From the NCBI RefSeq assembly GCF_003574655.1, contig NZ_QNUM01000004.1, positions 310,001 to 374,000 on the forward strand: 64,000 bases of DNA, written 5' to 3'. This stretch comes from Cohaesibacter haloalkalitolerans. GTDB taxonomy: Bacteria; Pseudomonadota; Alphaproteobacteria; Rhizobiales; Cohaesibacteraceae. Position 1 is the first letter of the stretch. Every line of letters begins with the position of its first letter. The notes below the pieces were generated by a model that was not told the origin of the DNA, ran no database searches, and worked only from the letters and a program-made list of their open reading frames with translations. The position numbers and the translations under genes were made by a program. Of the stretch, positions 17,049 through 50,624 are shown in pieces.

Positions 17049-17078
17049 GATCAGGGTTCCTTAAACATCAACGGGAAG

Positions 17079-17099: not shown

Positions 17100-17186
17100 G
17101 ACTGGTCCCGACAGGGATTGGGTCTTTCAAGATTACGATGGCCTGTCGGCCTTCAACCCCGGGATATGTGCCCCAGGGCCGGTGCA

Positions 17187-18086
17187 CTAGGCCTTGACCG
17201 GTCGCATACCGAGCATGTGGCAGATCGCATAGCACAGGTTGGCCCGGTTCATCGTGTAGAAGTGGAAATCATCCACCCCGCGCGAGCGCAGGTCCTCAAC
17301 CTGTTCGGCTGCAATCGCAGCTGCCACCAGACGATGGGTTTCGGGATCCTCTTCCAGACCTTCAAACCGGTTTGCCAGCCATTGCGGCACACTCGCCCCG
17401 GCCTTGCCCGCGAACCCTGCAACCTGCGTGAAACTGTGGATCGGCAGGATGCCCGGTACGATGGGAATGAAGATCCCGGCCCGGCGAACCCGTTCAACAT
17501 AGGCTTCATAGAGGTCGTTGTCGAAAAAGAATTGCGTGATCGCACGGGTCGCCCCGGCATCCACCTTCTGACGCAGCATCTCGATGTCGGTCGCAAAGTC
17601 CGGGCTTTCCGGATGTTTCTCCGGATAGGCGGAAACGGAAACCTCGAAATCGCCGATCCGCTTGATGCCAGCCACCAGATCGGCAGCATTGATGTAGCCA
17701 CCTTCGTGGGGCACGTATTTCTCGCCGATTCCGGCAGCCGGATCGCCGCGAAGGGCCACGATATGCTTGACGCCAATTTCGGCGTAAGAGCGGATCACGG
17801 CGTCGACTTCCTCGCGGGTGGCACTGACGCATGTCAGATGCGCCGCAGCCGGAATCCCGGCCTCGGTGATGATGCGCTTGACCGTGGCATGGGTGCGCTC
17901 ACGGGTAGAACCACCAGCCCCATAGGTCACGGACACAAATTCGGGGCGCAAGGGAGCAAGACGCTCGACGCTGGCCCACAGGCTTTCTTCCATCTTCGGC
18001 GTCTTTGGAGGGAAGAACTCGAAGGAAATGTTGAGCTTGTGCGTTTCCTTGCTGCGGCGGCCGCTGCGTTCTGCATTATGGATCAT
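17187..18086 (-). CDS. metF: 5,10-methylenetetrahydrofolate reductase MetF
   Basis: FAD enzyme producing 5-methyl-THF for MetH. The 299-residue product matches the E. coli length (about 296). Motifs in order are SFEFFPPKTPKMEESLW (residues about 18-34), SVTYGAGGSTRERTH, HLTCVSATREEVD, IVALRGDPAAG and ITQFFFDNDLY, all conserved in the family. The frame is open 60 bases further upstream to another ATG, but that start has no ribosome binding site, whereas GAGAG lies before the chosen one. It sits between the ArsR-methyltransferase fusion (112 bp) and metH (138 bp), all minus strand, forming a methionine-cycle operon. Confidence 0.95.
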   Translation of the reverse strand: MIHNAERSGRRSKETHKLNISFEFFPPKTPKMEESLWASVERLAPLRPEFVSVTYGAGGSTRERTHATVKRIITEAGIPAAAHLTCVSATREEVDAVIRSYAEIGVKHIVALRGDPAAGIGEKYVPHEGGYINAADLVAGIKRIGDFEVSVSAYPEKHPESPDFATDIEMLRQKVDAGATRAITQFFFDNDLYEAYVERVRRAGIFIPIVPGILPIHSFTQVAGFAGKAGASVPQWLANRFEGLEEDPETHRLVAAAIAAEQVEDLRSRGVDDFHFYTMNRANLCYAICHMLGMRPVKA

Positions 18087-18197
18087 TGTTTTTCTCTCAT
18101 TCACGCAGGCATCTCCAGGAGGCAGAGCGCCGCGTTGTTTCAGCATTGGGAAGGCACCTGCGGAGCAGCACCCTCAATCGGTTTGTATATCCATCGA

Positions 18198-19163
18198 CTA
18201 TTCCGGCTTTTCGGCAAGCCAGATTGTGACGGTCAGGGCATCATCATGCTGATCGCATTCCAGCCCGGTCGGTTCCAGATCCCGTGCAACGGTCACCTCA
18301 AACCCGGCGTCATGCATCCAGCGGCGCATGGCATCATGGGAGAATCCCAACCGCCGGTGCGCGTGGTCCTTTCGTAAAAACTCATGATCATGCGGGGCAA
18401 AATCGACGACGAGAATGCGCCCGCCGGGCAACAGCACCCGCCCCGCTTCCTGCAGGGCTGCGGACGGATCGTCCAGATAATGCAACACCTGATGAATGGT
18501 GATCAGATCGAACTTGCGATCAAGGGTCGCCAGATCCAGAAGGTCCCCCTGCTGCACATGCAGATGGCCATGGTTGGGACCATCCAGACGGGAGCGGGCC
18601 ACCGCCAGCATGGAGCGGTTTGCATCCAGCCCCAACCCGTCGCGGCAGCGATCGGCCAGCAGCGACAGAATGCTGCCGGTTCCCGTTCCAAGATCAAGCA
18701 ACTGCCGGATGGGCCGATCGCCGAGCGTTTCCAGCACAGCCTGCTCAACCGCACTCTCGGGCACATGCAGAACGCGCAATTCGTCCCAGCGCTCCGCATT
18801 CTGGCGGAAATAGTCCGCCGCCTGCTGGGCATTGGCTTCCTTGATCTGGTGCAGCCGCTCAAGATCGCGCACGATCATTGCATCATCATGGTCGAGATGC
18901 CGCAGGGTTGCCGAAATCAGATCGCCCTTGGCCTCGTCCCGCGTCAGGCAGTAATAGACCCACGCCCCTTCGGGCAAACGCTCGACCAGACCGGATTCAT
19001 AAAGCAGCTTCAGATGGCGGGAAATGCGCGGCTGGCTCTGATGCAGAATAGCCGTCAGATCCTTGACCGACAGATCCCCTTCGGCAAGCAGCGCCAACAG
19101 GCGCAGACGGGTAGGTTCCCCACTTGCTTTCAACAATCCGACGATTTCATCCAACGACAGCAT
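18198..19163 (-). CDS. ArsR-family regulator fused to SAM-dependent methyltransferase domain
   Basis: A 321-residue two-domain protein. Residues about 1-90 form an ArsR/SmtB winged helix (LLKASGEPTRLRLLALLAEG, then LHQSQPRISRHLKLL). No Cys-type metal-binding ELCVC motif is seen. Residues about 145-310 form a class I methyltransferase fold with the SAM-binding LLDLGTGTGSIL loop and an HQVLHYLDDP segment. It heads the metF-metH transcription unit. ArsR-family regulators of methionine recycling that respond to S-adenosylhomocysteine (SahR) are known in Proteobacteria; the fused methyltransferase fold is a plausible SAM/SAH sensor here. GAGGTGA precedes the ATG. Whether the fused domain is catalytic is unknown. 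Confidence 0.85.
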   Translation of the reverse strand: MLSLDEIVGLLKASGEPTRLRLLALLAEGDLSVKDLTAILHQSQPRISRHLKLLYESGLVERLPEGAWVYYCLTRDEAKGDLISATLRHLDHDDAMIVRDLERLHQIKEANAQQAADYFRQNAERWDELRVLHVPESAVEQAVLETLGDRPIRQLLDLGTGTGSILSLLADRCRDGLGLDANRSMLAVARSRLDGPNHGHLHVQQGDLLDLATLDRKFDLITIHQVLHYLDDPSAALQEAGRVLLPGGRILVVDFAPHDHEFLRKDHAHRRLGFSHDAMRRWMHDAGFEVTVARDLEPTGLECDQHDDALTVTIWLAEKPE

Positions 19164-19180
19164 ATGATCACCTCAAAGAT

Positions 19181-19196
19181 ATAAAGATATCTTTAT
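19181..19196. promoter_or_regulatory. SahR/ArsR-type operator
   Basis: A perfect 16-bp palindrome, ATAAAGATATCTTTAT, lies 18 bp upstream of the regulator start codon and overlaps where its promoter or leader would be. The core AAGATATCTT resembles what I recall of SahR-type sites. Repression of the whole metF-metH unit from here is likely. Confidence 0.7.
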
Positions 19197-19346
19197 GACA
19201 TCAGAATTAGAAACACAAGAGTAATCATCCCCTGCTATCCACCATTTCGATGAATTGGGCGACAGGCGCGCCTTTGTCACGCAAAAGGCTTCGCGAGCAA
19301 GGCACCAACAACAATGGTCTTGAGAAGAAAGAAGAGCCGGCCAGGA

Positions 19347-19787
19347 TCAGGCTTCGAGCACCGCGTCGAAAGCCATCTGCGCCACACGGGGCACATCCTC
19401 ACTGGTTGCCAGATCGTACCACGGCAGATCGTCGGCATCATACCAGGCAGCTTCCAGCGCATCGTCACCGGCAACCGCCTCGCCTTCCTGCCATTCACAC
19501 AGGATAGCAATCAGCACATAGTGGAACTGCAAGCGGCCGGACTGGCCCTTGGAAAAGGTTTCAAGCGTCGTCAGGATCCGGTCTGCCCGCCCACGGACGC
19601 CTGTTTCCTCGAACAATTCCCGCTGGGCGGCCATTTGCAGGGTTTCCCCAAACTCGACCTTGCCACCAGGAAAGCCCCATTTGCCCGCATCGGGCGGATT
19701 GGCCCGCTTGACGAGCAGCACCTTGCGCTCCCTCACCACAAGGCTGAGCACAGCGACCACAGGCTTTTGCTTTTGATTGTCATTCAT
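19347..19787 (-). CDS. NUDIX hydrolase
   Basis: A 146-residue protein with a complete Nudix box at about residues 41-63: GGKVEFGETLQMAAQREL followed by FEETG, which fits GX5EX7REUXEEXGU. Members hydrolyse nucleoside diphosphates linked to another moiety. The N-terminal VVAVLSLVVRERKVLLVKRANPP and the short size resemble MutT/ADP-ribose-type hydrolases common in alphaproteobacteria. Substrate not assignable. It lies between the methionine unit and gapR on the same strand, with a 183-bp gap upstream of the ArsR gene's promoter. Confidence 0.9.
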   Translation of the reverse strand: MNDNQKQKPVVAVLSLVVRERKVLLVKRANPPDAGKWGFPGGKVEFGETLQMAAQRELFEETGVRGRADRILTTLETFSKGQSGRLQFHYVLIAILCEWQEGEAVAGDDALEAAWYDADDLPWYDLATSEDVPRVAQMAFDAVLEA

Positions 19788-35295: not shown

Positions 35296-35324
35296 CTGAT
35301 GGCCTGAGAAAATCAGGCCATCAG
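35296..35324. other. Hairpin between convergent genes
   Basis: Twelve-base perfect stem CTGATGGCCTGA/TCAGGCCATCAG with a five-base loop between the YeiH and M24 stop codons. No T-run follows, but its position suggests it stabilises or defines both 3' ends. Confidence 0.55.
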
Positions 35325-35347: not shown

Positions 35348-36484
35348 TCAGGCTTGGCTGCTGAGGAGCCTGCGTTCAAACTGCGTCAGGCGTTTGCCGC
35401 CATCCTCTGTCACCACTACGGTTTCGGAAAATCCGAGACCCTGCGCGGAGGCATAGAGGTGGAACACCATGCCGGTTTCAAGCGGCCAGTCCGATGTTGG
35501 CAGCAAGACCCGGGAAAAATCGCTACTCCGCGGGGTCCGGTTGTAGATCCCCAGCGTGTAGGCGGTGACATTCGGGAAGGCATCGCGCAGGCCTGATTTG
35601 AGCAAACCCTGCCGCAGGATGGCGTCGACCTGAGAGGCAACGGCACCGCTTTTCATTTCCACGATCTGCTGATCCTGAAGCGAGATCAGCATCCGGGCGG
35701 TCTCATCCATTTCCCGTGATGGCTGGCCGATGAAAATCGGGCGCATCAGGCGGGCGCAATAATGGGCGATCTTGGGGATCAGTTCCACATGCAGGATGTC
35801 ACCATCCTCAAGACGGTCATTGCCAAGGCCGCCATGGAGAAATTCATGGCCGCCGCTGGAGCGGACGATAGGGCCTACCTCGCCGGTGTCGGCCCCTTCC
35901 AGAAGATAGGTGCGGGCAGCAATGGCGGCAGCATCGCGCGGAGACATGCCAGCCCGGATGTCATGCACAATCGCTCCCATGGCCTTGTCGGCGATGGCGG
36001 CAGCTGCGCGCAACTGCTCCACCTCTCGCCCGGACTTGATCCAGCGGAGGGCATCGGAGGCATCGGGCAGGTCAACGAACACCGCCTGCGGCAACAGCTC
36101 CATCAGGCGGCGATAGCTACGGACAGTGAAGCTGTAGGAGTTGAAATCGACGCCAATGCGCGCCTTCTCCATCCCCAGAAGCTGCAGGACACCGGCGATT
36201 GCCAACTGTGGCTCTTCATGGTCCTCGAAGGTCACGATCCTTGCCACCAGATTGTTGCGGCGGCAGGGATCCTCATCAAGCTTTCTGAGCACATACACAG
36301 GCTCGCCGTCTTTGGGCAGCAGAACAACCCGGTACATCGTCTCGGACGGCGCATAGCCCGTCAGCCAAGTCATCAGTTCGGCGCAGTCAGCCAACAAGAT
36401 GTCCACGCCATGAGCATTCATCAGCGCCCGGGCCTTGCCCAGACGCCAGTCATATTCCTCACGCGGGAAAGCCATCTCAGGCAA
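35348..36484 (-). CDS. M24 (creatinase/prolidase fold) hydrolase lacking most metal ligands
   Basis: A 378-residue protein with an N-terminal creatinase domain (about 1-135) and a C-terminal pita-bread domain (about 145-375). In metal-dependent M24 peptidases five residues bind two metals. Here the first Asp is Glu234 (HVELIPKI), the second is Arg245 (HYCARLMR), the His position reads TAYTLGIYN, and the fourth ligand region reads FHLYAS; only the last Glu (GFSETVVVTEDG) remains. This resembles metal-free creatinase or ectoine hydrolase-type enzymes, which hydrolyse C-N bonds of small compounds. Its start overlaps the preceding M20 stop by eight bases. Last gene of the peptide-transport operon. 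Confidence 0.82.
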   Translation of the reverse strand: MPEMAFPREEYDWRLGKARALMNAHGVDILLADCAELMTWLTGYAPSETMYRVVLLPKDGEPVYVLRKLDEDPCRRNNLVARIVTFEDHEEPQLAIAGVLQLLGMEKARIGVDFNSYSFTVRSYRRLMELLPQAVFVDLPDASDALRWIKSGREVEQLRAAAAIADKAMGAIVHDIRAGMSPRDAAAIAARTYLLEGADTGEVGPIVRSSGGHEFLHGGLGNDRLEDGDILHVELIPKIAHYCARLMRPIFIGQPSREMDETARMLISLQDQQIVEMKSGAVASQVDAILRQGLLKSGLRDAFPNVTAYTLGIYNRTPRSSDFSRVLLPTSDWPLETGMVFHLYASAQGLGFSETVVVTEDGGKRLTQFERRLLSSQA

Positions 36485-37697
36485 CCTCGCAGATATCGAG
36501 AATGGTCAGCATGTATATGCGGATCATGTCGAGGAAGTCGGCAATGTCCACCCGCTCGTCCGGCATGGTGTTGTAGCGACCGCCCGGACCACAGACGATG
36601 CCTTCCATGCCCAGTTCATGGTAGAGGTGGCCAGCATCGCTGCCGTAAAAGCCGGTCGGCGTGATCGCGCCGGTCGGCTGCGGTTCGCCGCGCACGGTCT
36701 CATAGGCCTTGTTGATCGACTTGACGATCCGGGATTCCTTGGACACTTCGAAGGCAGGCATGGTCAGGCGACCCTCGGCGCTTTCGGGCAGGATGACTGC
36801 CTTGAGGCCAGGGAAGCGGCTTTCCAGCCCGTCCAACTCGGCCCGAAGGTCGGCAAGAACACCCTCGCGGGTCTGGCCGGGAGCATAGCGCGCGGTGCCC
36901 TTGAGACGGGCGAAGTCGGCCACCTGCGGCGGACGCCATTCGACGAGATCCTTGCCCAGCGCCCCATGCACGACGCCGATGTGGCCCCGGTTGATTCCCC
37001 TGTGCTCCTCGCTGAGAGCCCCCGAGAAGGTCATGGCATTGATCCGCGGAATGATGTCACAGGCAGCTGCGATGGCATCAACGGCTTCCTCTCGCTTGGA
37101 CAGATGGCGGGTGTTGCCCGTAAGCTCGATGGTGAAGGTCAGCGCTTCGGCATGCATTGTCACGGCCTGCAGGTCGCTCGGCTCGCTGTTGACGAAATAG
37201 TCCGCCTTGTAGCCGGCCCGGATGGCTGCCACGGTGCCCGGACCGCCCTGCAATTCGCCGACCACAAAGGTCAGGATCACATCGCCCTTGAGTTTGACTC
37301 CAGCATCGATCAGGGTTTTGACCGCGCAGAAATAGGCCGCGTCGCCCGACTTCATGTTGGAGACACCAATGCCATAGATGAACTTGTCATCGATCAGGCC
37401 GCCCCATGGATCAACGGTCCAGCCTTCCGTGACGGGATTGGTATCAAGATGGCCATTGAACAACAGGCTCTTGCCGCCGCCCTCGCCCTTCCATGTGCCG
37501 ATCGCATTGTAGCGCCGGCCTTCATCGAATGGCTGAAGATCGCTGGTGAGGCCCAGCTTTTCGAGCTCTTCGGCCATATAGCGGGCCAGCGCAACCTCGC
37601 CCTCGGTTTCCGAGTAGCTCTTGTGACGAACCATGCTTGCCAGAAAATCTAGGCAGGCCTTCTCGTCGACTTTTCCGATCAGTTCCCTGGGATCCAT
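36477..37697 (-). CDS. M20 family (ArgE/DapE) hydrolase with altered metal site
   Basis: A 406-residue amidohydrolase-type protein. His83-x-Asp85 in FNGHLDTNPV is intact. The bridging Asp of the usual ADMKGG motif is Asn114 (GVSNMKSGDAA), and the usual Asp-Glu-Glu is Gly-Glu148-Leu149 (VVGELQGGPG), so the catalytic-base Glu stays but one metal ligand is lost. Glu172 in SEPSD is kept. A lid domain (about 180-290) is present. The family cleaves acyl or peptide amide bonds; this member may use a single metal. It overlaps the M24 gene start by eight bases and follows the ABC ATPase by 50 bp. Confidence 0.82.
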   Translation of the reverse strand: MDPRELIGKVDEKACLDFLASMVRHKSYSETEGEVALARYMAEELEKLGLTSDLQPFDEGRRYNAIGTWKGEGGGKSLLFNGHLDTNPVTEGWTVDPWGGLIDDKFIYGIGVSNMKSGDAAYFCAVKTLIDAGVKLKGDVILTFVVGELQGGPGTVAAIRAGYKADYFVNSEPSDLQAVTMHAEALTFTIELTGNTRHLSKREEAVDAIAAACDIIPRINAMTFSGALSEEHRGINRGHIGVVHGALGKDLVEWRPPQVADFARLKGTARYAPGQTREGVLADLRAELDGLESRFPGLKAVILPESAEGRLTMPAFEVSKESRIVKSINKAYETVRGEPQPTGAITPTGFYGSDAGHLYHELGMEGIVCGPGGRYNTMPDERVDIADFLDMIRIYMLTILDICEVA

Positions 37698-37747
37698 TTC
37701 ATGTCCTTCTATGATCTCGCTTCACCTTGGTGAGATCCGTTGCTCCC

Positions 37748-39388
37748 TCAAGGAGCGCTGCGGGCAACCGGCACGGGGACAGCCTCCAGAAGCTGCCGGG
37801 TATAGGCGGCTCTCTGAGGGGCGGTGATGTCCCGGGTGGGGGCAATTTCGATAAGGTCGCCGCGATACATGACGGCGATCCGGTGAGCAATCTGACGCAC
37901 GAGGTTGAGGTCGTGGGTGATGAACAGATAGGCGGTGCCGAACTCCTCGCGCAGCTCCATCAGCAGCTCGATCACCGAAGCCTGCACCGAAACATCAAGC
38001 GCCGAGGTGATCTCGTCGCAGATGACCAGCTTGGGCTGAGAGGCAAAGGCACGGGCAATCGCCACGCGCTGCTTCTCGCCGCCCGACAACTGGTGCGGAT
38101 AGCGGGCCGCATAGGAGGCGGGCAGCTTGACCTGTTCGAGAAGACGGGAAATCTCGTCCCGCATCGCCTTGCCGGAATATTCCGTATAGAGCCGATAGGG
38201 GCGCGAGAGGATGTCGCCGATGGTCTTGCGCGGGTTGAGCGAGGCGTCCGGGTGCTGGAAGATGATCTGCACATCCCGGCGATAGGAATCACTCATGTCG
38301 GCAATGCTATGGATCGGGCGCCCTTCGAAGCGGATCTCGCCCTCGAATTTGTTGAGCCCCGTCATGGCCTTGGCCAGCGTTGACTTGCCCGAGCCGCTTT
38401 CCCCGACGATCCCGAGAATCTCTCCCGGCTGGATGGCCAGATTGACGGCCCGGTTGCCGGTCACATGATTGCCAGCCTTTTTGGAGAAGCGCCCGAAAAA
38501 CGGTTTGCGGCCATAGATGACGCTGACATTCTCGACCTCGGCCAAGGGCTTGGCCGCATAGTCCGGCTCACTGCCCGCAAGGCGGACGGAAGGATCAGGC
38601 ACGGCGGCAATGAGTTTTTTGGTGTAGGGATCCTGAGGCCGGGTGAAGATTTCACCCACCTTGCCCTGCTCGACAATCTCGCCCCGGTTGATCACCGACA
38701 CCCTGTGGGCGGTGCTGGCCACCAGCGCCAGATCATGGGAGATATAGAGAGAGGCAACGCCCGTTTCCTGCTGCAGCGACTGGAACAGCTCGAGGATCTG
38801 CCGCGAGGTGATGACATCCAGCGCCGTGGTCGGCTCGTCAAAGATGATCAATTCCGGATTGCAGGCAAAGGCGGTGGCGATCACCACACGCTGCTTCTCG
38901 CCCCCCGAAGCTTCATGCGGGTAGCGATGCATCATCTGCGCCGGGGTCTTCAGGCCCACATGGGCAAGCCGCGCTTCCGCTTCGGCCCAAGCCTGCTTCT
39001 TGCTCAGCCCCTGATGGCGGATCAGCACTTCGCTGATCTGGCGGCCAAGCGACAGGGTCGGATTGAGCGAGGTTGCCGGATCCTGAAAGACCATCGAAAT
39101 GCGCTTGCCACGAATGGCCTCGATCTCGCTGTTCGAACGCGCCATCAGATCCGAGCCATCAAAGCGGATGGTACCGGAAACCTCATGGGCGTTGCCCGGC
39201 AGATAGCGCATGATCGACCAGGCAAGCGACGACTTGCCCGAGCCGCTTTCGCCCACGAGCCCGACAATCTCGCCCGCGCCGATGCTCAGGCTGATATTCT
39301 TGAGCGCATGAAACGGGCCTTTGGCGGTCAGATAGTCGAGGCTGTAGCCTTCGACCGAGAGCACCGGAGCTGCTGTATCACTGGTCAT
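37748..39388 (-). CDS. Dipeptide/nickel-type ABC transporter ATPase, two NBDs in one chain
   Basis: A 546-residue fusion equivalent to DppD plus DppF. NBD1 (about 8-260) has Walker A GESGSGKSS, signature ASGGEKQR and Walker B IIFDEPTTALD. NBD2 (about 280-535) has Walker A GESGSGKST, signature LSGGEKQR and Walker [12 protein letters not shown]. Each half is followed by a DppD/F-like C-terminal extension, including PTRDITAPQRAAYTRQLL near the end. A longer in-frame start would overlap the permease gene. The chosen ATG has GGAG seven bases upstream. It energises the two permeases encoded directly upstream. Confidence 0.93.
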   Translation of the reverse strand: MTSDTAAPVLSVEGYSLDYLTAKGPFHALKNISLSIGAGEIVGLVGESGSGKSSLAWSIMRYLPGNAHEVSGTIRFDGSDLMARSNSEIEAIRGKRISMVFQDPATSLNPTLSLGRQISEVLIRHQGLSKKQAWAEAEARLAHVGLKTPAQMMHRYPHEASGGEKQRVVIATAFACNPELIIFDEPTTALDVITSRQILELFQSLQQETGVASLYISHDLALVASTAHRVSVINRGEIVEQGKVGEIFTRPQDPYTKKLIAAVPDPSVRLAGSEPDYAAKPLAEVENVSVIYGRKPFFGRFSKKAGNHVTGNRAVNLAIQPGEILGIVGESGSGKSTLAKAMTGLNKFEGEIRFEGRPIHSIADMSDSYRRDVQIIFQHPDASLNPRKTIGDILSRPYRLYTEYSGKAMRDEISRLLEQVKLPASYAARYPHQLSGGEKQRVAIARAFASQPKLVICDEITSALDVSVQASVIELLMELREEFGTAYLFITHDLNLVRQIAHRIAVMYRGDLIEIAPTRDITAPQRAAYTRQLLEAVPVPVARSAP

Positions 39389-39398
39389 TCCGGTCTCC

Positions 39399-40223
39399 TC
39401 ACGTTTTCGGGTTGAGCACATCGCGCAGACCATCGCCGAGCAGGTTGAACCCGATGGCGACCAATGCGATGGCAAGGCTTGGCCAGACCAGAATCCAGCT
39501 GGAGATATGCATGTAGCGGCGCGCCTCGGAGACCATCAGCCCCCATTCTTCAGACGGCGGCTGCGCCCCAAGACCAAGGAAGCTGAGCGTTGCGAACAGC
39601 ATGATGGCGAAGGACACGCGAATGGTCATTTCAACGATGATCGGTGCCACGGTGTTGGGCAGCATTTCCGACAGGACGATGAAATTCGGCTTCTCTCCGC
39701 GCGCAATGGCGGCGCTGACGAAATCCTGCTTGCGAGCCGACAGGGCAACCGCACGGCTGATGCGGGCCATGCCGGGGGCAAAGGCGATGGACACGGCCAG
39801 AAGCGCATTGATGTCGGAAGACCCGAGCAGGTTGACGATGATCAGCGCAAACAGCAGGCTCGGGATCGACATCACTGCGTCGACGGTACGCATGATGACC
39901 TCATCGGCCCGGCCACCAAGAAAGGCCGACGTGACCCCAACCAGAGCACCGACAACAGTGCCGATCAGGGTGGCCACCACTGCCATGATGACGGTGGAGC
40001 GGGCGCCAATCATCAACCGTGAGAAAATGTCCCGGCCATATTGATCGGTTCCCAGCAGAAAGTCGGCGCTGGGGCCCTTGAAGCGCGCCAGAATGGACAT
40101 GGCTTCGGGATCATGCGGGGCCAGATAGGGCCCGAAGGCCACGGCAACCAGCACCAGCAAGACGATGATGGTGCCGATCGCACCTTGCGGGGATCGCATC
40201 AGACGTTTGATAAAATCAGTCAT
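39399..40223 (-). CDS. Peptide-type ABC transporter permease (DppC-like)
   Basis: A 274-residue inner-membrane permease with a short cytosolic N-terminus, an N-terminal TM segment (GTIIVLLVLVAVAFGPYL) and the binding-protein-dependent domain (about 80-270). The DppC-type loop after TM1 contains LLGTDQYGRDIFSRLMIGA. The chosen ATG has GAGGA six bases upstream; the longer frame overlaps the preceding permease. Its start overlaps the upstream DppB-like gene by eight bases, and a 10-bp gap separates it from the ATPase. Confidence 0.93.
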   Translation of the reverse strand: MTDFIKRLMRSPQGAIGTIIVLLVLVAVAFGPYLAPHDPEAMSILARFKGPSADFLLGTDQYGRDIFSRLMIGARSTVIMAVVATLIGTVVGALVGVTSAFLGGRADEVIMRTVDAVMSIPSLLFALIIVNLLGSSDINALLAVSIAFAPGMARISRAVALSARKQDFVSAAIARGEKPNFIVLSEMLPNTVAPIIVEMTIRVSFAIMLFATLSFLGLGAQPPSEEWGLMVSEARRYMHISSWILVWPSLAIALVAIGFNLLGDGLRDVLNPKT

Positions 40224-41163
40224 ACTGGATCCTCTTGTCGAGCAGGGAATAGAGGATGTCGGCGATGAAATTGACCACACAATAGGTCGCCGCCATGATC
40301 AGCACACCCGCCTGAATCGACGGCAGGTCGCGAGCCTGAATGGCGATGATCAACTGGCGGCCAATGCCGGGAATGGCAAAGATCTCTTCCACCACGATCA
40401 CACCGCCGAGCAGATAGCCCACATCAAGTGCCACGATGGTGATCGTGGGCAGCAGCGCGTTGCGCAAGGCATGCCCCCAGAGAACCTGCCGTGAAGAAAG
40501 ACCCTTGAGACGCGCCGCACGGATATAGTCCGTATGCAGCACATCCACCATTTCCGATCGCACCATGCGCGAGACATGGGCCACCAGAATGATGGAAATG
40601 ACGGCAGCAGGCATGATCAGATGGGCGACCCCGTCCCAGAAATTCTCGGTGAGCGGCACATAGCCCGTCGGCGGCAGCAGTTTCCAGCGATCGGCAAGGA
40701 ACAGCAGCGCCAGCGTGGCCGTAACGAACTCTGGCAGAGACACGCCAACATAGGAAATGAGGCTGACAGCCATGTCAACAATCTTGCCACGACGCACCGC
40801 AGCGAGAATGCCCAGCGGCACGGCGATAAACAGCATCAGACAGATGGAAAAGAGAGCGAGAAGCAGCGAGCGGCTGAGAGCCTCGACCATGACGGGTCCG
40901 ACTGACAGCCCGGTGCGCAGCGAGGTTCCGAAATCACCCTGAAAGACACCGGCGATCCAGTGCAGATACTGCGTCCAGACCGGATTGTTCAGCCCCATCT
41001 GCTCCCGAAGCGCGGCAAGCGCTTCCTCGGTCGCGTTCTCGCCCAGCATCATCACCGCCGCATCGGCAGGCAGAATCTGGGTCATGGCGAAAACGATCAG
41101 CGACACGATCAGGAGCGTATAGAAAATCAGGGCCACCCGCTTTGTGAGATAGCTGGCAGACAA
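40216..41163 (-). CDS. Peptide-type ABC transporter permease (DppB-like)
   Basis: A 315-residue inner-membrane protein. N-terminal TM at about 9-28 (VALIFYTLLIVSLIVFAMT) followed by the family pattern LREQMGLNNPVWTQYLHWI. The membrane domain ends with the EAA-like AARLKGLSSRQVLWGHALRN and a GxxLGGVIVVEEIFAIPGIG segment, both diagnostic of DppB/NikB permeases. It is separated from the binding-protein gene by 100 bp and overlaps the next permease. Confidence 0.94.
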   Translation of the reverse strand: MSASYLTKRVALIFYTLLIVSLIVFAMTQILPADAAVMMLGENATEEALAALREQMGLNNPVWTQYLHWIAGVFQGDFGTSLRTGLSVGPVMVEALSRSLLLALFSICLMLFIAVPLGILAAVRRGKIVDMAVSLISYVGVSLPEFVTATLALLFLADRWKLLPPTGYVPLTENFWDGVAHLIMPAAVISIILVAHVSRMVRSEMVDVLHTDYIRAARLKGLSSRQVLWGHALRNALLPTITIVALDVGYLLGGVIVVEEIFAIPGIGRQLIIAIQARDLPSIQAGVLIMAATYCVVNFIADILYSLLDKRIQYD

Positions 41164-41263
41164 ATTACTATTCCTGTTGTTTGTCTCCGGCAGCCTGACA
41201 GCCCCAAGAGAGGGGACTTGGAACCGTCAGGCCGTCGGCAGCATTGAACATGCTACGGGGAAA

Positions 41264-42823
41264 TTATGACCGCGTCGGAGCCTTGTCCGTCAGCCATGCA
41301 TGGTCGAAACGGAACACGGAAGCGCGCGGATGGATATCATAGGCGGCAACCCAGGTCCGTTTGGCACCCAGCACATCAAAGAAGGTCGGGATGATGGATG
41401 GAACACCCTCATACTGAAGCTTCTGGGCTTCGGCATAAAGCTTGGCGCGGGTCGCTTCGTCGGCGGTGACACGGGCGGCGTTGACCGCCTTGTCAAAGTC
41501 CGAATTATCCCAGCGCGTTTCGTTCCACGCAGCATCGGAGGTGTAGAGCAATTTGAAGATACCGTCTTCGGTCGGCTGCATGTTGTAGAAGCCAACGTAG
41601 AAATTGCCCTTCTTCCAGACCTGATCCAGATAGGTGGCGTGTGGCATCGTCTGGACTTCGATGTCGAAGCCAGCCGGTTTGGCCATTTCGCGCAGGGCAA
41701 CGGCGAGCTGCGTGCGCAGGGCCGGCTTTTCAGAAGCCACCAGCGTAATCTTGATGCCATCGGCATAACCGGCATCAGCCAGCAGCTGCTTCGCCTTCGC
41801 GATGTCCGGCTTGCGCGCGGGCTGCTCGGAGAAGAAGCGATAGGCGTTGTTGATCGGCGTGTCGTTGCCTGCCGTGCCGAAGCCCTCGGTCACGAACTGA
41901 ATCATGGCTTCACGATCCACGGTCAGGGCAAGGGCCTGACGAACGCGCGGATCATCAAACGGCTTGACATCGCACCGCATGTTGACGTTGCAGAACTGGC
42001 CGGAAGCGACGCGCTGCAGGTCGACACCATCGGTGCCATCAAGGCGCATATACTCAGTCGGATCAAGGGTGGAAATCAGGTCGATCTCACCAGCAATGAG
42101 CGCGGAGCTCTCTGCGGTGGAATCCGGATAGACATTCAGCACGACCTTGTCGAGATAGGGGCGTTCCGGATCATAATAGTCCGGGTTGCGTTCAACCACG
42201 ACCTGACGGTCCGGCTCGAAGGAAACCAGCTTGAACGGGCCAGTGCCAACAGCTTCGCTGGAGAGTTTGTCAAGGCCACTCTCGATGATGGCGGCAGGAA
42301 CGATCTTGGCGTTCATGTAGGCTGTTGCTACCGGCATGTCGGCATAGGGGCCAGAGAGCTTGAAGACGACGGTGAGCTCATCCTTGGCAACGACGTCCTC
42401 GATCGGCCCAACGTTCTTGCGGCCGGGAGAGGCGGTATCCGGATTGAGGATTGCCTTGTAGGAAGCGACCACGTCAGCTGCGGTCAGTGCAGAGCCATCG
42501 TGGAACTTGACGCCCTTGCGCAGGATGAAGGTCCATTCGGTCAATTCTTCATTGGCGCTCCAGCTTTCAGCCAGATCGGCTTCCGGGCTCATGTCCACCT
42601 TGAGGCGGGTCAGGCCGCTGTAAAGCAGTTCGGCCAGCATGTATTCCGGGTTGACGCGGACAAGCAGCGGGTTGAGCACGCTGGTAGCCTGATCAATGGC
42701 CACACGCAGGGTGCCGCCTTTTACCGGAGCCTGCGCAAAGGCGGGCATGGAAAGAGAAAGGGTCGCCGAAGCTGCCACAAAGGCAGTTCCGAGGAGAAAA
42801 CGTCTGCGGGTTGTTTCAAGCAT
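41264..42823 (-). CDS. ABC transporter substrate-binding protein, SBP_bac_5 family
   Basis: Periplasmic solute receptor of 519 residues for peptides or related compounds. The N-terminus has a twin-arginine signal (ETTRRRFLLG, hydrophobic core, PAFAQA) so it is probably Tat-exported. The mature protein begins KGGTLRVAIDQATSVLNPLL; the family signature region TEWTFILRKGVKFHDGSALTAADV (split here) is at about 95-120. Two cysteines in the mature part are not obviously paired. AAGGAA lies six bases before the ATG; the upstream frame extension has no support. Downstream of the proximal M20 gene (38 bp). Confidence 0.93.
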   Translation of the reverse strand: MLETTRRRFLLGTAFVAASATLSLSMPAFAQAPVKGGTLRVAIDQATSVLNPLLVRVNPEYMLAELLYSGLTRLKVDMSPEADLAESWSANEELTEWTFILRKGVKFHDGSALTAADVVASYKAILNPDTASPGRKNVGPIEDVVAKDELTVVFKLSGPYADMPVATAYMNAKIVPAAIIESGLDKLSSEAVGTGPFKLVSFEPDRQVVVERNPDYYDPERPYLDKVVLNVYPDSTAESSALIAGEIDLISTLDPTEYMRLDGTDGVDLQRVASGQFCNVNMRCDVKPFDDPRVRQALALTVDREAMIQFVTEGFGTAGNDTPINNAYRFFSEQPARKPDIAKAKQLLADAGYADGIKITLVASEKPALRTQLAVALREMAKPAGFDIEVQTMPHATYLDQVWKKGNFYVGFYNMQPTEDGIFKLLYTSDAAWNETRWDNSDFDKAVNAARVTADEATRAKLYAEAQKLQYEGVPSIIPTFFDVLGAKRTWVAAYDIHPRASVFRFDHAWLTDKAPTRS

Positions 42824-42861
42824 TGGTGGTTCCTTCTTGAAGTGATTTTTGGCTGATATTC

Positions 42862-44178
42862 TTATTTTTGATCCGGATTCATATCCGGTTCGAAGTCTGC
42901 TGCCAGATAGGACAGCACGCTCTTGGCAAGCGCGATGATATCTGGCGAAGTTGTATGTTCGTCCGGGCCGTGGACATTGCTGGAAGGCCTCCCCAGCCCT
43001 CCCAACAGAATTTCCTGCATCACACCGGCCTGCTGGACATATCCGAAGTCCGAACAACTTGCGGCGCCCCATTTGGCAAAGTCCTTCTTGCGATAGCCAA
43101 ACCCTGCGCTAAGCGCCTTCTGCCAACGTGGCCAGTGGGCACCGTCCGGGTCTGCTGTCGGGGTCAGATGGGATGTCTGCTCGATGCCATAGGTGATCAT
43201 GTCGAGATCATCGAGAGCAGCATGAATGCATGCCTCGATCTCTGCACGGGCGTCCGCGTAGGTCTCTTCAGGCGCATAGCGCCGCCCGATCAGCAACTCG
43301 AAACGCCCCGGCACCTGCCCCGGCGCCGTCCCGCCATTGGCGGCGGCAATATAGAGCTGGGGCCGCAAGGGACCGTTCGCACCGGGAGCCGGCGCCAGTT
43401 TCGAAGCGCGCGCACCAACTTTTTCCTTGAGTGCCATGAGTGCATTCATCAGCGGGATGCTGGCTTCAATGGCATTGGCTCCTGCCCCGCTGCGGTTACC
43501 GTCACCCGCATGTACGGGCACGCCGCGAATGGTCAGCGTAAGTGCAAAGACACCAAAGCACCCGGCCCAGACGCGCGGCGCCGCAGAACCGTTGAAATTG
43601 AGAATATGCCCCTTGAGATAGCCCTGTTCCGCCAGATAGCGGATACCCGGATAGAGGCCGGATTCCTCATCGGTGCAAAACAGCAGCATCGGGTCATAGG
43701 CAAGCGGAACAGCATGATCCTTGGCCACCTTGAGCGCCAGATAACAGGCAGCCATGGTGCCCTTCATGTCCGCAGCGCCTAGTCCATAGAGCCGATCGTC
43801 CATCTTGGTCATGGCAAATGGCTCGAAGGTCCAGCCCGGTGCAACGGGAACCGTATCGACGTGGAAATAGAGCCCACAGACCGGCTTGCCCGTTACACGC
43901 TCACCAATAAGATTGATCCGTTCGCCAGACGCCTTGCCCGATCGGGTCTTCCAGAGACCTTCGGGCACCGACACCCGTTCGAAACCGAAAGACAGCGGTT
44001 CAAACAGCGATTGCGCCAGATCCGCAAACGCTCCATAGCCCTCTCCCGGAGGGAAAGTGGTATCGACAGCGATCATCCGAGCCAGTGCATCCTCTGCAGA
44101 ATTGACAGACTTCTCAATGGCTTCAAATGCCGGTTGCAAAGCTTGATGCGAGCGTAGAGAGTAACTTTTGTCTGACAC
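42862..44178 (-). CDS. M20 family (ArgE/DapE) metallohydrolase
   Basis: A 438-residue amidohydrolase and the first gene of the operon. His106-x-Asp108 (YFHVDTVP), Asp137 (GAADMKGT) and Glu171-Glu172 (CTDEESGL) follow the canonical M20 pattern; the final His is in NVHGPDEHTTSPDI. The position that usually carries Glu-Pro (fourth ligand, near residue 195) reads LNFNGSAA, which is unusual. The lid domain (about 205-330) is typical. It would deacylate or hydrolyse a small amide or dipeptide taken up by the transporter. Divergent from the GntR regulator with a 21-bp inverted repeat upstream. Confidence 0.88.
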   Translation of the reverse strand: MSDKSYSLRSHQALQPAFEAIEKSVNSAEDALARMIAVDTTFPPGEGYGAFADLAQSLFEPLSFGFERVSVPEGLWKTRSGKASGERINLIGERVTGKPVCGLYFHVDTVPVAPGWTFEPFAMTKMDDRLYGLGAADMKGTMAACYLALKVAKDHAVPLAYDPMLLFCTDEESGLYPGIRYLAEQGYLKGHILNFNGSAAPRVWAGCFGVFALTLTIRGVPVHAGDGNRSGAGANAIEASIPLMNALMALKEKVGARASKLAPAPGANGPLRPQLYIAAANGGTAPGQVPGRFELLIGRRYAPEETYADARAEIEACIHAALDDLDMITYGIEQTSHLTPTADPDGAHWPRWQKALSAGFGYRKKDFAKWGAASCSDFGYVQQAGVMQEILLGGLGRPSSNVHGPDEHTTSPDIIALAKSVLSYLAADFEPDMNPDQK

Positions 44179-44213
44179 CTTGTTGCCTCTGGATAGTGGA
44201 CGGCGACGAATGT

Positions 44214-44234
44214 TTTCTATAAACTATATAGAAA
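44214..44234. promoter_or_regulatory. GntR-type operator in the divergent promoter region
   Basis: A 21-bp inverted repeat, TTTCTATA, five bases, TATAGAAA, lies 36 bp upstream of the proximal M20 gene and 32 bp upstream of the GntR gene. GntR/UTRA repressors bind palindromes of this type and size. The AT content is well above the flanks. Confidence 0.7.
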
Positions 44235-44265
44235 TATATGCGAGCAAAAGAGATAGATTGTCAAT

Positions 44266-45060
44266 ATGAAAGATGACGAGACACTGATGGCCCTGTTCCC
44301 CCAGGCGACGCAGGAAGATGATTTTTCACCGTCCATGGCTGACCGGGCCCAACCCCTCTACCTCGTGGTCAAGAGACAAATCTTTGATGCTATCATGATG
44401 GGGAAATGGCCCGCTGGCACCGTCTTGCCCAGCGAAGTCGAACTGGCGCGGATGCTGCGCGTCTCTGTCGGAACCATCCGCCGGGCCCTCAGTGAGCTGA
44501 CCAATGAAGGCATGCTCAGCCGCCGTCGCAAGACCGGCACTGTGGTAACTGGTCGCACCCCCCAGCACAGCCTGCGCTTCTTCTTCCAGTATTTCCGTCT
44601 GCACGGACTGGACGGATCCCTGCAACATTCGCAGGCCAGAAACCTGTCGCTGGTTTTCGGAGAGGCGACGGATATCGAATCAGAAAACCTGAGCGTCGAA
44701 CCAGCCACCCCGGTGATGCGCCTGTCGCGTGTGCGCAGCGTTCACGACAAGCCCGTGATGGTGGAAACCGTAACGATGCCATCGGGCCAACTGGCCGATT
44801 TCCCGCGCAATGTGGAAGACGTCCCGGCCCTGCTCTATCTGTATCTGCTTGAGCATTACGACATTCGCATCTCGGCCGTGCGGGAAAAGATCGCGGCGGA
44901 ACTGGCCAATGAGGATGACCTCGTCCATCTGCAACTGGAAGCCCCGAGCGCCGTCTTGACGATCGAGGAAGTGGCCTATGATCAGACCGGCACCCCGGTG
45001 CTGTTCACCAAACACCGGGCGACCACCCGCAGCCATCGCTACATCAACGAATTGCAGTAG
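44266..45060 (+). CDS. GntR/UTRA family transcriptional regulator
   Basis: A 264-residue regulator. After an N-terminal tail, a GntR winged helix (about 28-95) has LYLVVKRQIFDAIMMGKWPAG (split) and LPSEVELARMLRVSVGTIRRALSEL, then the UTRA ligand-binding domain (about 110-262) of the HutC subfamily, ending SHRYINELQ. It is divergent from the M20-ABC-M20-M24 operon and is the likely repressor of it. The ligand is probably the transported compound or its breakdown product. A GNAT gene converges 29 bp downstream. Confidence 0.9.
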   Translation: MKDDETLMALFPQATQEDDFSPSMADRAQPLYLVVKRQIFDAIMMGKWPAGTVLPSEVELARMLRVSVGTIRRALSELTNEGMLSRRRKTGTVVTGRTPQHSLRFFFQYFRLHGLDGSLQHSQARNLSLVFGEATDIESENLSVEPATPVMRLSRVRSVHDKPVMVETVTMPSGQLADFPRNVEDVPALLYLYLLEHYDIRISAVREKIAAELANEDDLVHLQLEAPSAVLTIEEVAYDQTGTPVLFTKHRATTRSHRYINELQ

Positions 45061-47225: not shown

Positions 47226-50200
47226 ATGTCACAGTCATTGATGAAAAACCGGCGGTTCGCCCCTTTGTTCTGGACGCAGTTCCTGTCCGCCTTCAACGAT
47301 AACTTCCTCAAGAATGCTCTGGTTTTCCTGATCCTGTTCCGGGTATCGGACGGCTCGGCCACGTTCATTTCTCTGGCAGGTGGCATCTTCATTGCCCCCT
47401 TCCTGTTCCTGTCTGCTCTCGGGGGCCAGATCGCGGACCGCCACGACAAGGCTTCCGTTGCGCGAAAGTTGAAGCTGGCCGAGGCCGGAGCCGCCGTGTT
47501 GGCTGTCGGCGGCATGGCCCTGCATTCAATCCCGGTTCTGTTTGTTGCCCTGTTTCTGTTCGGCCTGATTTCCGCGCTGTTCAGCCCGATCAAATACGGC
47601 CTGCTGCCGGACCATCTGGAGCCTTCCGAGTTGCCCGCCGCCAACGCCTGGGTCGAGGCTGGCACATTTCTGGCCATTCTGGGTGGCACCATCGGTGCGG
47701 GCCTGCTGTTCACACAAGGGGCTGCAACCGTGATATTCGGCCCGGTGATGATCCTTCTGGCGATCGGCTGCTACGGCTTCAGCCGCTTCATTCCGGCCAC
47801 GGGAATCGCAGCCCCCGATCTCACGATCGATCGCAACATTCTGGCGTCAACCCGCAATATCCTGCGCGACCTCTACCGCGAGGAGCGTCTGTTCAAGGCG
47901 GCGGCAATGAACAGCTGGTTCTGGCTGACGGGTGCCATCATCATGTCGATCCTGCCGATATTGGTGAAAGACATTCTTGGCGGCGGAGAGCTGGCTGTGA
48001 CCTTCTTTCTGACCGTCTTTGCCCTGTCCATCGGTATCGGTTCGTCCCTTGCGGCCTGGTTGAGTTCGGGTCGGGTCAATCTTCTTCCCGCCCTCATCGG
48101 CACCGCTCTGATCGGCATCCTCTGCTACGATCTCTACACTGTGCTCGATGGCCTGCCGACCTTTGCCCCCGTGGAAAACCTGAGCGACTTTGTTGTCCGG
48201 CAAGGTGTCCTCCACGTGGCCTTCGATCTGGCTGGCCTTGCAATCGCCGGAGCGCTGCTGGTCGTCCCCACCTTTACCGCGCTGCAGACTTGGGCCAGGC
48301 CGGAACGCCGCGCCCGCACCATTGCCGGTGCCAATGCACTTGGCGCGGCCGTAATGGTTGTCGGGTCACTGTTGCTTGCCATCGCCCAGAACTTTGGCGC
48401 TTCGGTCGCCAATGTTATGCTGGCGCTGAGCGGCCTCAACGCACTGGCCCTGCTCGTGATGATCAAACTGACACCAACCAGCCCCTTCCGCGACCTTGTC
48501 TCGATCATCTACCGCTGCTTCTTCCGTATGGAGATCAAGGGCCTCGAAAATCTCGAGAAGGCGGGCGAAGCCCCGATCCTCGCCCTCAATCACGTCAGCT
48601 ATCTGGATGCCGCAGCAGCGCTGACCCTCACCGACAAGGCCCCAACCTTCGCCATCGACTATCAGATTGCCAGAATCTGGTGGGTACGTCCCTTCCTCAA
48701 GCTTGCCAATGCCCTGCCGATCAACCCGGCCAAACCGATGGCGACACGGTCCCTGATCAAGGTGGTCGAATCCGGTGAACCCATGGTGATTTTCCCTGAA
48801 GGCCGTCTCACTGTCACCGGTTCCCTCATGAAGGTCTACGATGGGGCCGCGATGGTTGCCGACAAGACCGGAGCAAAGGTCGTCCCGATCCGCATCGATG
48901 GACTGGAACGCACCCCCTTCTCCTATCTTAACCCCAGCCAGATCCGCAAAAGCCTCTTTCCCAAACTCAGGATCACCATTCTGGAGCCTCGCAGCCTTTC
49001 AGTCGACGCAGCCCTCAAAGGCAGAAAGCGCCGCGTGGCAGCAGGCACCAAACTATATGAGATCATGTCAGACCTGATGTTTCACACGTCAATGAATGAA
49101 AACGCCACGATCGTTGAGCGGATCATCGAAACAGCGCACGAACGAGGCATGTCCGGCCTAGCCCTGCAGGATCCGGTCAGCGGCAACCTCTCCTACAACA
49201 AGCTGCTGACGGGAACCAATGTTCTGGCGAGAAAATTCTCTCACCTTCTGGCAACGGAAGACACGGTCGGCGTGATGCTGCCCAACGCCAATGGTACGGT
49301 CGTCACCACCCTCGCCCTCATGTCAGCAGGCAAGGTGCCTGCCATGATCAACTTCTCTGCCGGTAGCAAGAATGTGCTCTCGGCCTGCCAGACCGCCAAG
49401 GTCACCAAGGTGCTGACCTCCCGCGCCTTCGTCACGCAGGCCAAGCTTGATGGTCTGGTTGCAGAAATCGGCAAGGAAATCGAGTTCATCTGGCTCGAAG
49501 ACATCCGTGCCGGCATTTCCATCCTGGAAAAGATCCGTGGTTCTCTGGGCCGCAATCGCCCACTGACCAGACGTTCCATCGACGACGTGGCCGTCATCCT
49601 GTTCACCTCCGGTTCCGAAGGTCGCCCCAAGGGCGTGGTGCTCAGCCACCGCAACATATTGGCCAATGCCACCCAGGCCGCCGCACGCATCGACTTCACA
49701 CCGACCGACAAACTGTTCAACGTGCTGCCGATGTTCCATTCCTTCGGGCTGACCGCTGGCACCATTCTGCCACTGGTCTCGGGCGTTCCGGTCTATCTCT
49801 ACCCCTCGCCCCTGCACTATCGCATCGTGCCCGAACTGATCTACGCATCGAACGCAACGATCCTGTTCGGCACGGACACATTCCTGTCCGGTTATGCCCG
49901 CACCGCCCATGCCTATGACTTCCGCTCGCTGCGCTATTGCTTTGCCGGTGCGGAGCCGGTCAAGACCTCAACCCAGATGACCTATATGCAGCGTTTTGGC
50001 CTGCGCATTCTGGAAGGCTATGGCGTCACCGAAGCCGCCCCCGTCATCGCCATCAACACGCCGATGTTCAACAAGGCTGGCTCCGTTGGCAAATTCATGC
50101 CCGGCATCGAATACCGGCTTGAGCCGGTGCCGGGGATCGACAACGGCAAACGCCTGAGCATTGCGGGGCCGAATATCATGATGGGCTATCTGCTGCATGA

Positions 50201-50624
50201 CCGGCCCGGCCAGTTGGTGCCGCTGGAAGGCGGCTGGCACGATACCGGCGATATCGTCGATATTGATGACGAGGGGTTTGTCACGATCAGGGGGCGTGCC
50301 AAGCGCTTTGCCAAGATCGGCGGAGAAATGGTTTCTCTGGCAGCGGTCGAGGAACTGGCCGGTGAATTGTGGCCTGGAACCCTGTCTGCCGTTGCCAGTG
50401 TCAAGGATGACCGCAAGGGTGAAAAGCTGGTGCTGATCACCGAACGGCCAGACGCCACGCGAACGGAGTTCCTCGATTTTGCCAAGCAGAAAGGCGCGCA
50501 GGACCTGATGATCCCTGCCGATGTCCGGGTGGTCTCCAAGGTTCCGGTTCTAGGATCGGGCAAGCTCGACTTCGCTGCCATCAACAAGCTCGTTGAGGAT
50601 CTGGAGCAGGGAAAAGCCGCCTGA
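47226..50624 (+). CDS. Fused lysophospholipid transporter / 2-acyl-GPE acyltransferase / acyl-ACP synthetase
   Basis: A 1132-residue three-module membrane protein for lysophospholipid recycling. Residues about 1-425 form an MFS (LplT-like) flippase with about 12 TMs and the RxxxxK-like cytoplasmic loop QIADRHDKASVARKLK. Residues about 430-640 form a PlsC acyltransferase with the NHxSYLD motif (His near 455, ALNHVSYLDAAAAL) and FPEGRLTVTG near 522. Residues about 650-1130 form an AMP-forming adenylation domain with FTSGSEGRPKGVVLSH near 792, YGVTEAAPV, and WHDTGDIVDIDDEGF. In E. coli these are two genes, lplT and aas. The fusion exists in other Proteobacteria. No ACP gene is nearby. Confidence 0.93.
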   Translation: MSQSLMKNRRFAPLFWTQFLSAFNDNFLKNALVFLILFRVSDGSATFISLAGGIFIAPFLFLSALGGQIADRHDKASVARKLKLAEAGAAVLAVGGMALHSIPVLFVALFLFGLISALFSPIKYGLLPDHLEPSELPAANAWVEAGTFLAILGGTIGAGLLFTQGAATVIFGPVMILLAIGCYGFSRFIPATGIAAPDLTIDRNILASTRNILRDLYREERLFKAAAMNSWFWLTGAIIMSILPILVKDILGGGELAVTFFLTVFALSIGIGSSLAAWLSSGRVNLLPALIGTALIGILCYDLYTVLDGLPTFAPVENLSDFVVRQGVLHVAFDLAGLAIAGALLVVPTFTALQTWARPERRARTIAGANALGAAVMVVGSLLLAIAQNFGASVANVMLALSGLNALALLVMIKLTPTSPFRDLVSIIYRCFFRMEIKGLENLEKAGEAPILALNHVSYLDAAAALTLTDKAPTFAIDYQIARIWWVRPFLKLANALPINPAKPMATRSLIKVVESGEPMVIFPEGRLTVTGSLMKVYDGAAMVADKTGAKVVPIRIDGLERTPFSYLNPSQIRKSLFPKLRITILEPRSLSVDAALKGRKRRVAAGTKLYEIMSDLMFHTSMNENATIVERIIETAHERGMSGLALQDPVSGNLSYNKLLTGTNVLARKFSHLLATEDTVGVMLPNANGTVVTTLALMSAGKVPAMINFSAGSKNVLSACQTAKVTKVLTSRAFVTQAKLDGLVAEIGKEIEFIWLEDIRAGISILEKIRGSLGRNRPLTRRSIDDVAVILFTSGSEGRPKGVVLSHRNILANATQAAARIDFTPTDKLFNVLPMFHSFGLTAGTILPLVSGVPVYLYPSPLHYRIVPELIYASNATILFGTDTFLSGYARTAHAYDFRSLRYCFAGAEPVKTSTQMTYMQRFGLRILEGYGVTEAAPVIAINTPMFNKAGSVGKFMPGIEYRLEPVPGIDNGKRLSIAGPNIMMGYLLHDRPGQLVPLEGGWHDTGDIVDIDDEGFVTIRGRAKRFAKIGGEMVSLAAVEELAGELWPGTLSAVASVKDDRKGEKLVLITERPDATRTEFLDFAKQKGAQDLMIPADVRVVSKVPVLGSGKLDFAAINKLVEDLEQGKAA

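Follow-up and report, generated by a model that had tools for sequence, protein, structure and literature searches.

The window, a stretch of 64,000 nucleotides from Cohaesibacter haloalkalitolerans, contains an operon of seven genes on the minus strand (44178-35348) and a divergent GntR/UTRA regulator gene. The gene order is M20a, solute-binding protein (SBP), PermB, PermC, ATPase, M20b and M24. The features are as follows.

35296..35324, minus strand: terminator-like hairpin 3' of M24 (12-pair stem and T tail)
35348..36475, minus strand: M24, hydrolase of the DoeA/creatinase type that lacks the dinuclear metal site (residues H217, E234, R245, Y309, H342, Y344, S353, E354), from alignments and a model
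36477..37697, minus strand: M20b, hydrolase of the M20 family with a single predicted metal site (residues H83, N114, E148, L149, E172, T377), from alignments and structure comparison
37748..39388, minus strand: fused two-domain ATPase of the DF type, GsiA-like, from family models and E. coli comparison
39399..40223, minus strand: permease C (PermC), best NCBIfam model DdpC (258.5 of 434 bits), from family models and E. coli comparison
40216..41163, minus strand: permease B (PermB), DppB-like, from family models and E. coli comparison
41264..42823, minus strand: family-5 SBP with a twin-arginine signal (MLETTRRRFLLG), lacking the DppA anchors R383 and D436, from domain search and alignment
42862..44178, minus strand: M20a, M20 hydrolase in which Asn196 occupies a metal-ligand position, from domain search and alignments
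44214..44234, no strand: 21-bp palindrome TTTCTATA-N5-TATAGAAA, unique in the genome, predicted operator common to both transcripts
44266..45060, plus strand: GntR/UTRA (HutC-type) regulator, divergent from the operon, Pfam GntR and UTRA both over the Pfam cut-offs

Gene content, single strand and order agree with an earlier note on this DNA, as does the spacing: with refined starts (M24 starts at ATG 36475), genes overlap or lie at most 100 bp apart. The gaps are 38 bp (M20a-SBP), 100 bp (SBP-PermB), about 10 bp (PermC-ATPase), 50 bp (ATPase-M20b) and 1 bp (M20b-M24), and PermB and PermC overlap by 8 bp. The hairpin after M24 is called terminator-like on its stem length and position, because the scan found seven such sites against a shuffle mean of 7.8, i.e. 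no excess over shuffles.

The palindrome that had been reported between the operon and the regulator gene was confirmed, and its exact form occurs once in the 5-Mb genome; with up to three mismatches, 0.01 occurrences are expected in the window. Related sites were found in the corresponding intergenic gap of 18 of 21 other loci inspected, 13 by a search with the arms and five by eye. The best NCBIfam model of the regulator is TIGR02018, with 84.1 bits where 220 are required, and HutC itself is thereby ruled out.

The peptide-type transporter

The transporter belongs to the same class as the peptide transporters Dpp, Opp and Gsi, from which the operon differs by its dedicated hydrolases and by an SBP without the DppA anchors. 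Among five E. coli transporters, the closest proteins are GsiA for the ATPase (42%), DppB for PermB (38%) and DppA for the SBP (26%), and PermC has its best match in DdpC. An assignment of the whole transporter to Ddp was rejected, as PermC alone is nearest to that system. The E. coli ddpXABCDF operon also encodes a peptide-type ABC transporter, and in ten Pantoea/Sodalis plasmids a ddpX gene has the same place behind the operon. However, ddp contains neither an M20 or M24 hydrolase nor a divergent GntR gene, and DdpA keeps the Asp anchor that our SBP lacks.

According to PMC12136057, an Arg and an Asp of DppA bind the carboxyl and amino groups of the dipeptide. Both residues are missing in all 16 aligned SBPs, and the Asp common to DdpA, DppA and OppA is missing in the SBP, also at the two loci with ddpX (L073 and L077). 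GsiB and NikA likewise lack the dipeptide anchors, a point against reading the operon as a pathway for a non-peptide compound. The earlier note had proposed an unusual compound in place of ordinary dipeptides; the missing anchors and the fixed changes in the hydrolases fit this, but judging from the alignments the absence of the anchors rules out the DppA binding mode only.

Metal-binding residues of the three hydrolases

Three hydrolase families are combined in one operon, and each has lost its usual metal site partly or wholly in a fixed way. The counts out of 121 rows given below describe close relatives, because only the best 120 matches per family were used.

M20a departs from the canonical dinuclear M20 ligand set (bridging Asp, Glu-Glu, fifth Glu/Asp, last His) at a single position, where Asn196 replaces the Glu/Asp ligand, while the other ligands, the general base and the lid His are kept. 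It had been described as mostly canonical, which is correct for all ligands but this one, the Asn having been overlooked. Asn196 is present in 121 of 121 rows (close relatives, best 120 of 827 matches).

M20b deviates further from this set. The bridging Asp is replaced by N114, a Glu by L149 and the last metal His by T377, with H83, E148 and E172 kept, and these changes are predicted to leave one metal site. The first two replacements were known from the earlier note; the third had been missed. All seven canonical M20 proteins aligned have His in the column of T377. The last His of M20a falls in a different column from T377 in one alignment and in the same column in another. Asn114, Leu149 and Thr377 are present in all 121 M20b rows (close relatives, best 120 of 2345 matches), and in L072, a distant relative (32%), the corresponding residues are His, Leu and Ser.

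Judged by aligned residues, 5-nitroanthranilate aminohydrolase, an M20-fold enzyme that releases ammonia from 5-nitroanthranilate, appears to have the same metal-site pattern as M20b. However, it is only 22% identical and not the single closest M20 protein: DapE 7uoi scores 102.9 bits against 75.9 bits, and 3pfo reaches a Z of 39.6, above that of the aminohydrolase. The fact that the aminohydrolase is not the closest protein to M20b overall is another point against reading the operon as a pathway for a non-peptide compound.

In M24, the five ligand columns D, D, H, E and E, defined by alignment with four canonical M24 proteins that this genome also encodes, are occupied by E234, R245, Y309, Y344 and S353. 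Therefore no ligand is kept exactly, where one of five had been claimed; E354 sits one residue past the last column, and E234 is a like-charged change at the first Asp column. The five-ligand dinuclear site of prolidase and Xaa-Pro peptidases is thus absent. The HMMER alignment agrees with the alignment with the canonical proteins; for the fourth prolidase ligand HMMER gives E336, the canonical proteins Y344. Among close relatives (best 120 of 310 matches), E234, R245, Y309 and Y344 are present in 121 of 121 rows; in a separate alignment, S353 is present in 22 of 22.

The proposed likeness to creatinase and ectoine hydrolase is borne out by the model: fold and residues are nearest to the solved ectoine hydrolase DoeA, then to creatinase, with the metal ligands replaced. 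DoeA/EutD shares the M24 fold at 26% identity, but has other residues where M24 has the fixed R245 and Y344, and its operon partners are different.

Recurrence of the gene set

The neighbourhood survey suggested in the earlier note shows that the set is not confined to this genome. The divergent GntR gene followed by M20a, SBP, PermB, PermC, DF-type ATPase and M20b was found in 21 of the 32 loci examined, where the presence of M20b is partly by construction, because most of these loci were found with M20b. M24 is also present in 13 of the 21, and the GntR orthologue adjoins M20a in 21 of the 32. The hosts of operon-type loci include alpha-, beta- and gammaproteobacteria, among them plant-associated and marine bacteria, and the loci are often on plasmids. 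The named neighbourhoods were drawn from a plasmid collection, because the M24 search of genome contigs gave one distant locus. M20b is likely the core enzyme of the pathway and M24 accessory.

Members of these families carry source names such as acetylornithine deacetylase, succinyl-diaminopimelate desuccinylase and Xaa-Pro dipeptidase. The literature matches listed, including those for ddpX with Pantoea and for 5-nitroanthranilate, hold nothing on the operon. Deducing the substrate from accessory genes failed, as these differ between locus variants.

What the operon may degrade

On balance, we lean towards reading the operon and the divergent GntR gene as a ligand-induced pathway for the import and hydrolysis of a small compound that contains hydrolysable C-N bonds and is either N-blocked or not a peptide. 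The twin-arginine SBP would capture the periplasmic ligand for import through the B/C/DF transporter. M20b may then make the first cut, using a single metal at site 1 (H83, N114, E172) and E148 as the base, and M20a would cleave a related or later bond. M24, where present, might act like ectoine hydrolase and, with no need for the usual metal pair, open a group resembling an amidine, a guanidine or a lactam. The GntR protein on the palindrome is predicted to repress both transcripts and to leave once the ligand or a product binds.

A rather unlikely alternative is the scavenging of D-amino-acid or cell-wall peptides, in which peptides with D-residues are imported and trimmed by the hydrolases and DdpX finishes D-Ala-D-Ala where present. 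About 1.15 kb behind M20b, ddpX is found in ten of the 60 plasmid records listed as containing M20b (hosts Pantoea/Sodalis), after M24 in both of the two plasmids inspected, and two tested products score over the curated D-Ala-D-Ala dipeptidase cut-off. This arrangement points to D-amino-acid peptides and away from the import of a non-peptide compound. The DdpC-likeness of PermC, by family model and by E. coli comparison, fits as well. However, only two of the 32 loci (L073 and L077) contain ddpX, their SBPs like ours lack the shared Asp, and PermB, ATPase and SBP are not nearest to Ddp. A tblastn search with DdpX found no ddpX in the window, and neither did a family search in the genome, a weak test because E. 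coli, which has the gene, was absent from its listing.

It is improbable that the operon serves the catabolism of aminopolycarboxylates or N-substituted aspartates (imidodisuccinate/EDDS-like), with M20b and M24 acting beside C-N lyases. In one genome (G331, L049) the two hydrolases have as neighbours relatives of IDS-epimerase (2hp0 being the best PDB match), of agmatinase/metformin hydrolase and of the argininosuccinate-lyase family of 6g3d/6rx8, which we take to be EDDS lyase, although the PDB record itself names argininosuccinate lyase; the genes of another (G262, L051) match by size and order alone. According to PMC7312458, ligands of the EDTA type can be bound by a family-5 SBP. Against this, the epimerase, lyase and agmatinase-type genes are all missing from the window operon, and at those loci M20b is 60-63% identical while the transporter is more distant (SBP 36%).

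We give equally little credence to an ordinary di- or oligopeptide operon with merely drifted peptidases. The Dpp/Opp-type transporter and three peptidase-family hydrolases would suit it, but the SBP lacks the DppA anchors and the hydrolase changes are identical in 121 rows per family of close relatives, which speaks for selection. Ectoine or creatine catabolism, to which the DoeA- and creatinase-like M24 points, is very improbable and was rejected on the curated equivalog cut-offs (TIGR02993 115.9 of 613 bits, NF038259 109.9 of 575, no over-cut-off match in the genome) and on the partners missing from the operon, an AstE-type (DoeB/EutE) gene and a full MocR-type regulator (EnuR).

Returning to the import and hydrolysis of an N-blocked or non-peptide compound, a broader and more tentative proposal is that M20b founds a widespread single-metal M20 family with an Asn-Leu-Thr signature, possibly attacking a non-peptide C-N bond like 5-nitroanthranilate aminohydrolase. 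Plasmids would then have spread the operon among alpha-, beta- and gammaproteobacteria, and it might serve to break down an N-blocked nitrogen compound that is abundant in plants, soil and sea but unrecognised so far. If the favoured reading of the operon is right, current names such as acetylornithine deacetylase mislead for many proteins. The operon would suit a search for a new nutrient pathway, and the recurring palindrome would simplify an inducer screen. Through its binding protein, its inducer and a knock-out, it would offer a handle to find the compound to which plant-associated bacteria and marine ones devote a pathway, often one carried on plasmids.

Operon anatomy and predicted operator

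The operon is real and conserved; its general kind is known, and its hydrolase sites are unusual and fixed. The literature listings that we searched contain no description of it, and any function or substrate given here is a proposal. The anatomy proposed in the earlier note was right. The genes are separated by at most 100 bp, and a terminator-like hairpin lies 3' of the M24 gene.

44178 to 35348, minus strand: seven-gene run of M20a, SBP (family-5 solute-binding protein), permease B, permease C, fused DF ATPase, M20b and M24
44266-45060, divergent from the operon: GntR/UTRA gene
44214-44234, between the start codons of the GntR gene and M20a: palindrome TTTCTATA-N5-TATAGAAA

The palindrome has one exact copy in the 5.0 Mb genome; allowing up to three mismatches, the chance expectation for the window is 0.01 copies. 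For 22 loci we examined the intergenic gap that separates the GntR gene from the operon. Six gaps, four of them from Cohaesibacter including the window, have a perfect palindrome whose arms are at least 8 long; eight have a version with 6-7-bp arms, and five a related core, judged by eye; in the remaining gaps (L046, L048, L050) no clear palindrome was found. The core is the same in the Pantoea, Sodalis and Duffyella sites. We infer that the GntR protein binds the palindrome, a predicted operator. Elsewhere in the window, a 1132-aa protein (47226-50624) combines three parts in one chain: major-facilitator domain, acyltransferase and AMP-binding enzyme.

Metal sites of the hydrolases

M20a and M20b were each aligned with their 120 best listed relatives, and the ligand roles of the two-metal site are those of carboxypeptidase G2. 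All 121 rows (query and best 120 listed) keep H83, D85, N114, E148, L149, E172, H198 and T377 in M20b, and H106, D108, D137, E171, E172, N196, H223 and H403 in M20a. Judged from these columns, site 1 is retained in M20b (His, Asn for Asp, Glu), and both ligands private to site 2 are gone (Leu and Thr stand there instead); in M20a, site 2 is retained and the site-1 Glu/Asp is replaced by Asn. Thus, the two enzymes are altered at opposite sites. As a control we used the 22 M20 matches in the same genome, 12 of which were recovered as proteins. After leaving out M20a, M20b, a misaligned protein (L089) and a paralogue of M20b (L104), which has the same changes as M20b, eight remained, and all eight keep Asp, Glu-Glu, Glu/Asp and His.

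Two residue statements of the earlier note need mending. It had left the M24 protein one of five metal ligands, and the mended count is none at the exact columns. The odds of the readings are unchanged, because the loss of the metal site is only fuller, not different.

Gene content and distribution

M20b-like proteins (E <=1e-60) were sought at three levels, counting the own genome each time: 17 of 397 genomes from the order, 10 of 385 from the class and 2 of 398 in the phylum sample have one, and the last two belong to the same order. Within the genus, 5 of 18 genomes, again counting the own genome, carry M24 at 87% or higher. On plasmids, M20b (E <=1e-50) occurs in 62 records, from Rhizobium (29), Pantoea (13), Neorhizobium (6), Agrobacterium, Duffyella, Variovorax, Roseomonas, Sodalis, Azospirillum, Paracoccus and others. 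Given such varied plasmid hosts, the gene set has likely moved between classes.

We compared 32 loci: the window, 14 and 8 stretches from genome searches, and nine of the 62 plasmid records. A divergent GntR gene with M20a-SBP-B-C-DF-M20b, the full set, is present in 21. An M24 gene (at least 46%) directly follows M20b in 13 of these and is absent from seven (L045, L047, L065, L068, L074, L080, L081); in the Pantoea soli plasmid (L078) it is a 35% remnant at 13227-13931, annotated as two short hypothetical genes, with the rest of the operon annotated whole. Among the 11 loci outside the full set, one is cut by a contig end (L067), one gave no GntR match (L069), two lack M20a but have the transporter and M20b (L050 and Variovorax L075), two are a paralogous cluster with other M24 genes (L042, L053), two have a divergent transporter (L049, L051) and three have M20b without this transporter set (L070, L071 and L072, the last at 32%).

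M20b adjoins the transporter in 27 of the 32 loci. Because most loci had been gathered with M20b as query, we also searched the order with M20a. It is present in 11 of 397 genomes, always less than 7 kb from the M20b of the same genome, and has no match in 6 of the 17 genomes carrying M20b. Since in these genomes M20a was never found without M20b, but M20b was found without M20a, M20b is probably the core enzyme. One Cohaesibacter M20a match (G014:C2:117080-118390) has one reported in-frame TAA and is otherwise 88% identical.

Binding protein, ddpX and variant clusters

The binding proteins of 16 loci were aligned with DppA, OppA, DdpA, GsiB and NikA of E. coli. PMC12136057 gives DppA R383 and D436 roles in holding the dipeptide. 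The column of D436, the amino-group Asp, is a gap in all 16 proteins, whereas the Asp lines up in OppA and DdpA; the column of R383, the carboxyl-group Arg, holds Ser in 15 and Ala in one. If the alignment holds, this excludes the DppA binding mode, not every peptide, because GsiB and NikA also lack both anchors. Fifteen of the 16 show a twin-arginine signal. PMC7312458 demonstrates aminopolycarboxylate binding by a protein of this class.

The strongest pointer to D-amino-acid peptides as substrate, partly against our main reading, is the D-Ala-D-Ala dipeptidase gene ddpX. Ten plasmids, from Pantoea dispersa (eight), Pantoea sp. SOD02 and Sodalis praecaptivus, carry it some 1.15 kb past M20b, and in the two that were read it comes after M24. 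Two DdpX proteins scored 283.1 and 271 bits against a curated cut-off of 176; identity between the query and E. coli DdpX is 64%. The negatives of the whole-genome PF01427 search are weak, since E. coli, whose K-12 strain has ddpX, was missing among the listed controls.

Our main reading remains import and hydrolysis of an N-blocked or non-peptide C-N compound. The paralogous cluster of the own genome (G000:C18:110035-127329; L042, L109), with an SBP5 transporter, holds an M20b paralogue (68%), three DoeA-like M24 genes, and glutamine-amidotransferase-like, DapA-like and SDR genes. Beside it, in the opposite direction, lie M20, LamB/YcsF (PxpA-type) and class-III aminotransferase genes. On another contig (G000:C24:115138-121395, L110), an M24 gene adjoins an M20 gene and two carboxyltransferase-domain (5-oxoprolinase-type) genes, with hydroxyacid-dehydrogenase-, LamB/YcsF- and TRAP-like genes seen by eye.

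In genome G331 (L049), the neighbours of M20b and M24 include an M28 peptidase and relatives of IDS-epimerase, of argininosuccinate lyase, and of agmatinase or metformin hydrolase; this cluster may encode a pathway acting on a guanidino compound or an N-substituted aspartate. It also contains an M20 gene and a divergent peptide-type transporter; the lyase relative is argininosuccinate/EDDS-lyase-like, and the ureohydrolase-like gene has, by eye, lost one usual metal His position. Genome G262 (L051) resembles it by gene size and order. In genome G750 (L071), three AstE/AspA-type genes lie within a few kb of M20b, and the stretch 9348-19733 also has an SBP_bac_6/8-type ABC transporter and an amidohydrolase near this M20b relative. 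The partners in these clusters (C18, G331, G750) differ too much for a single substrate to be named, but they are consistent with a family of pathways that handle N-substituted compounds.
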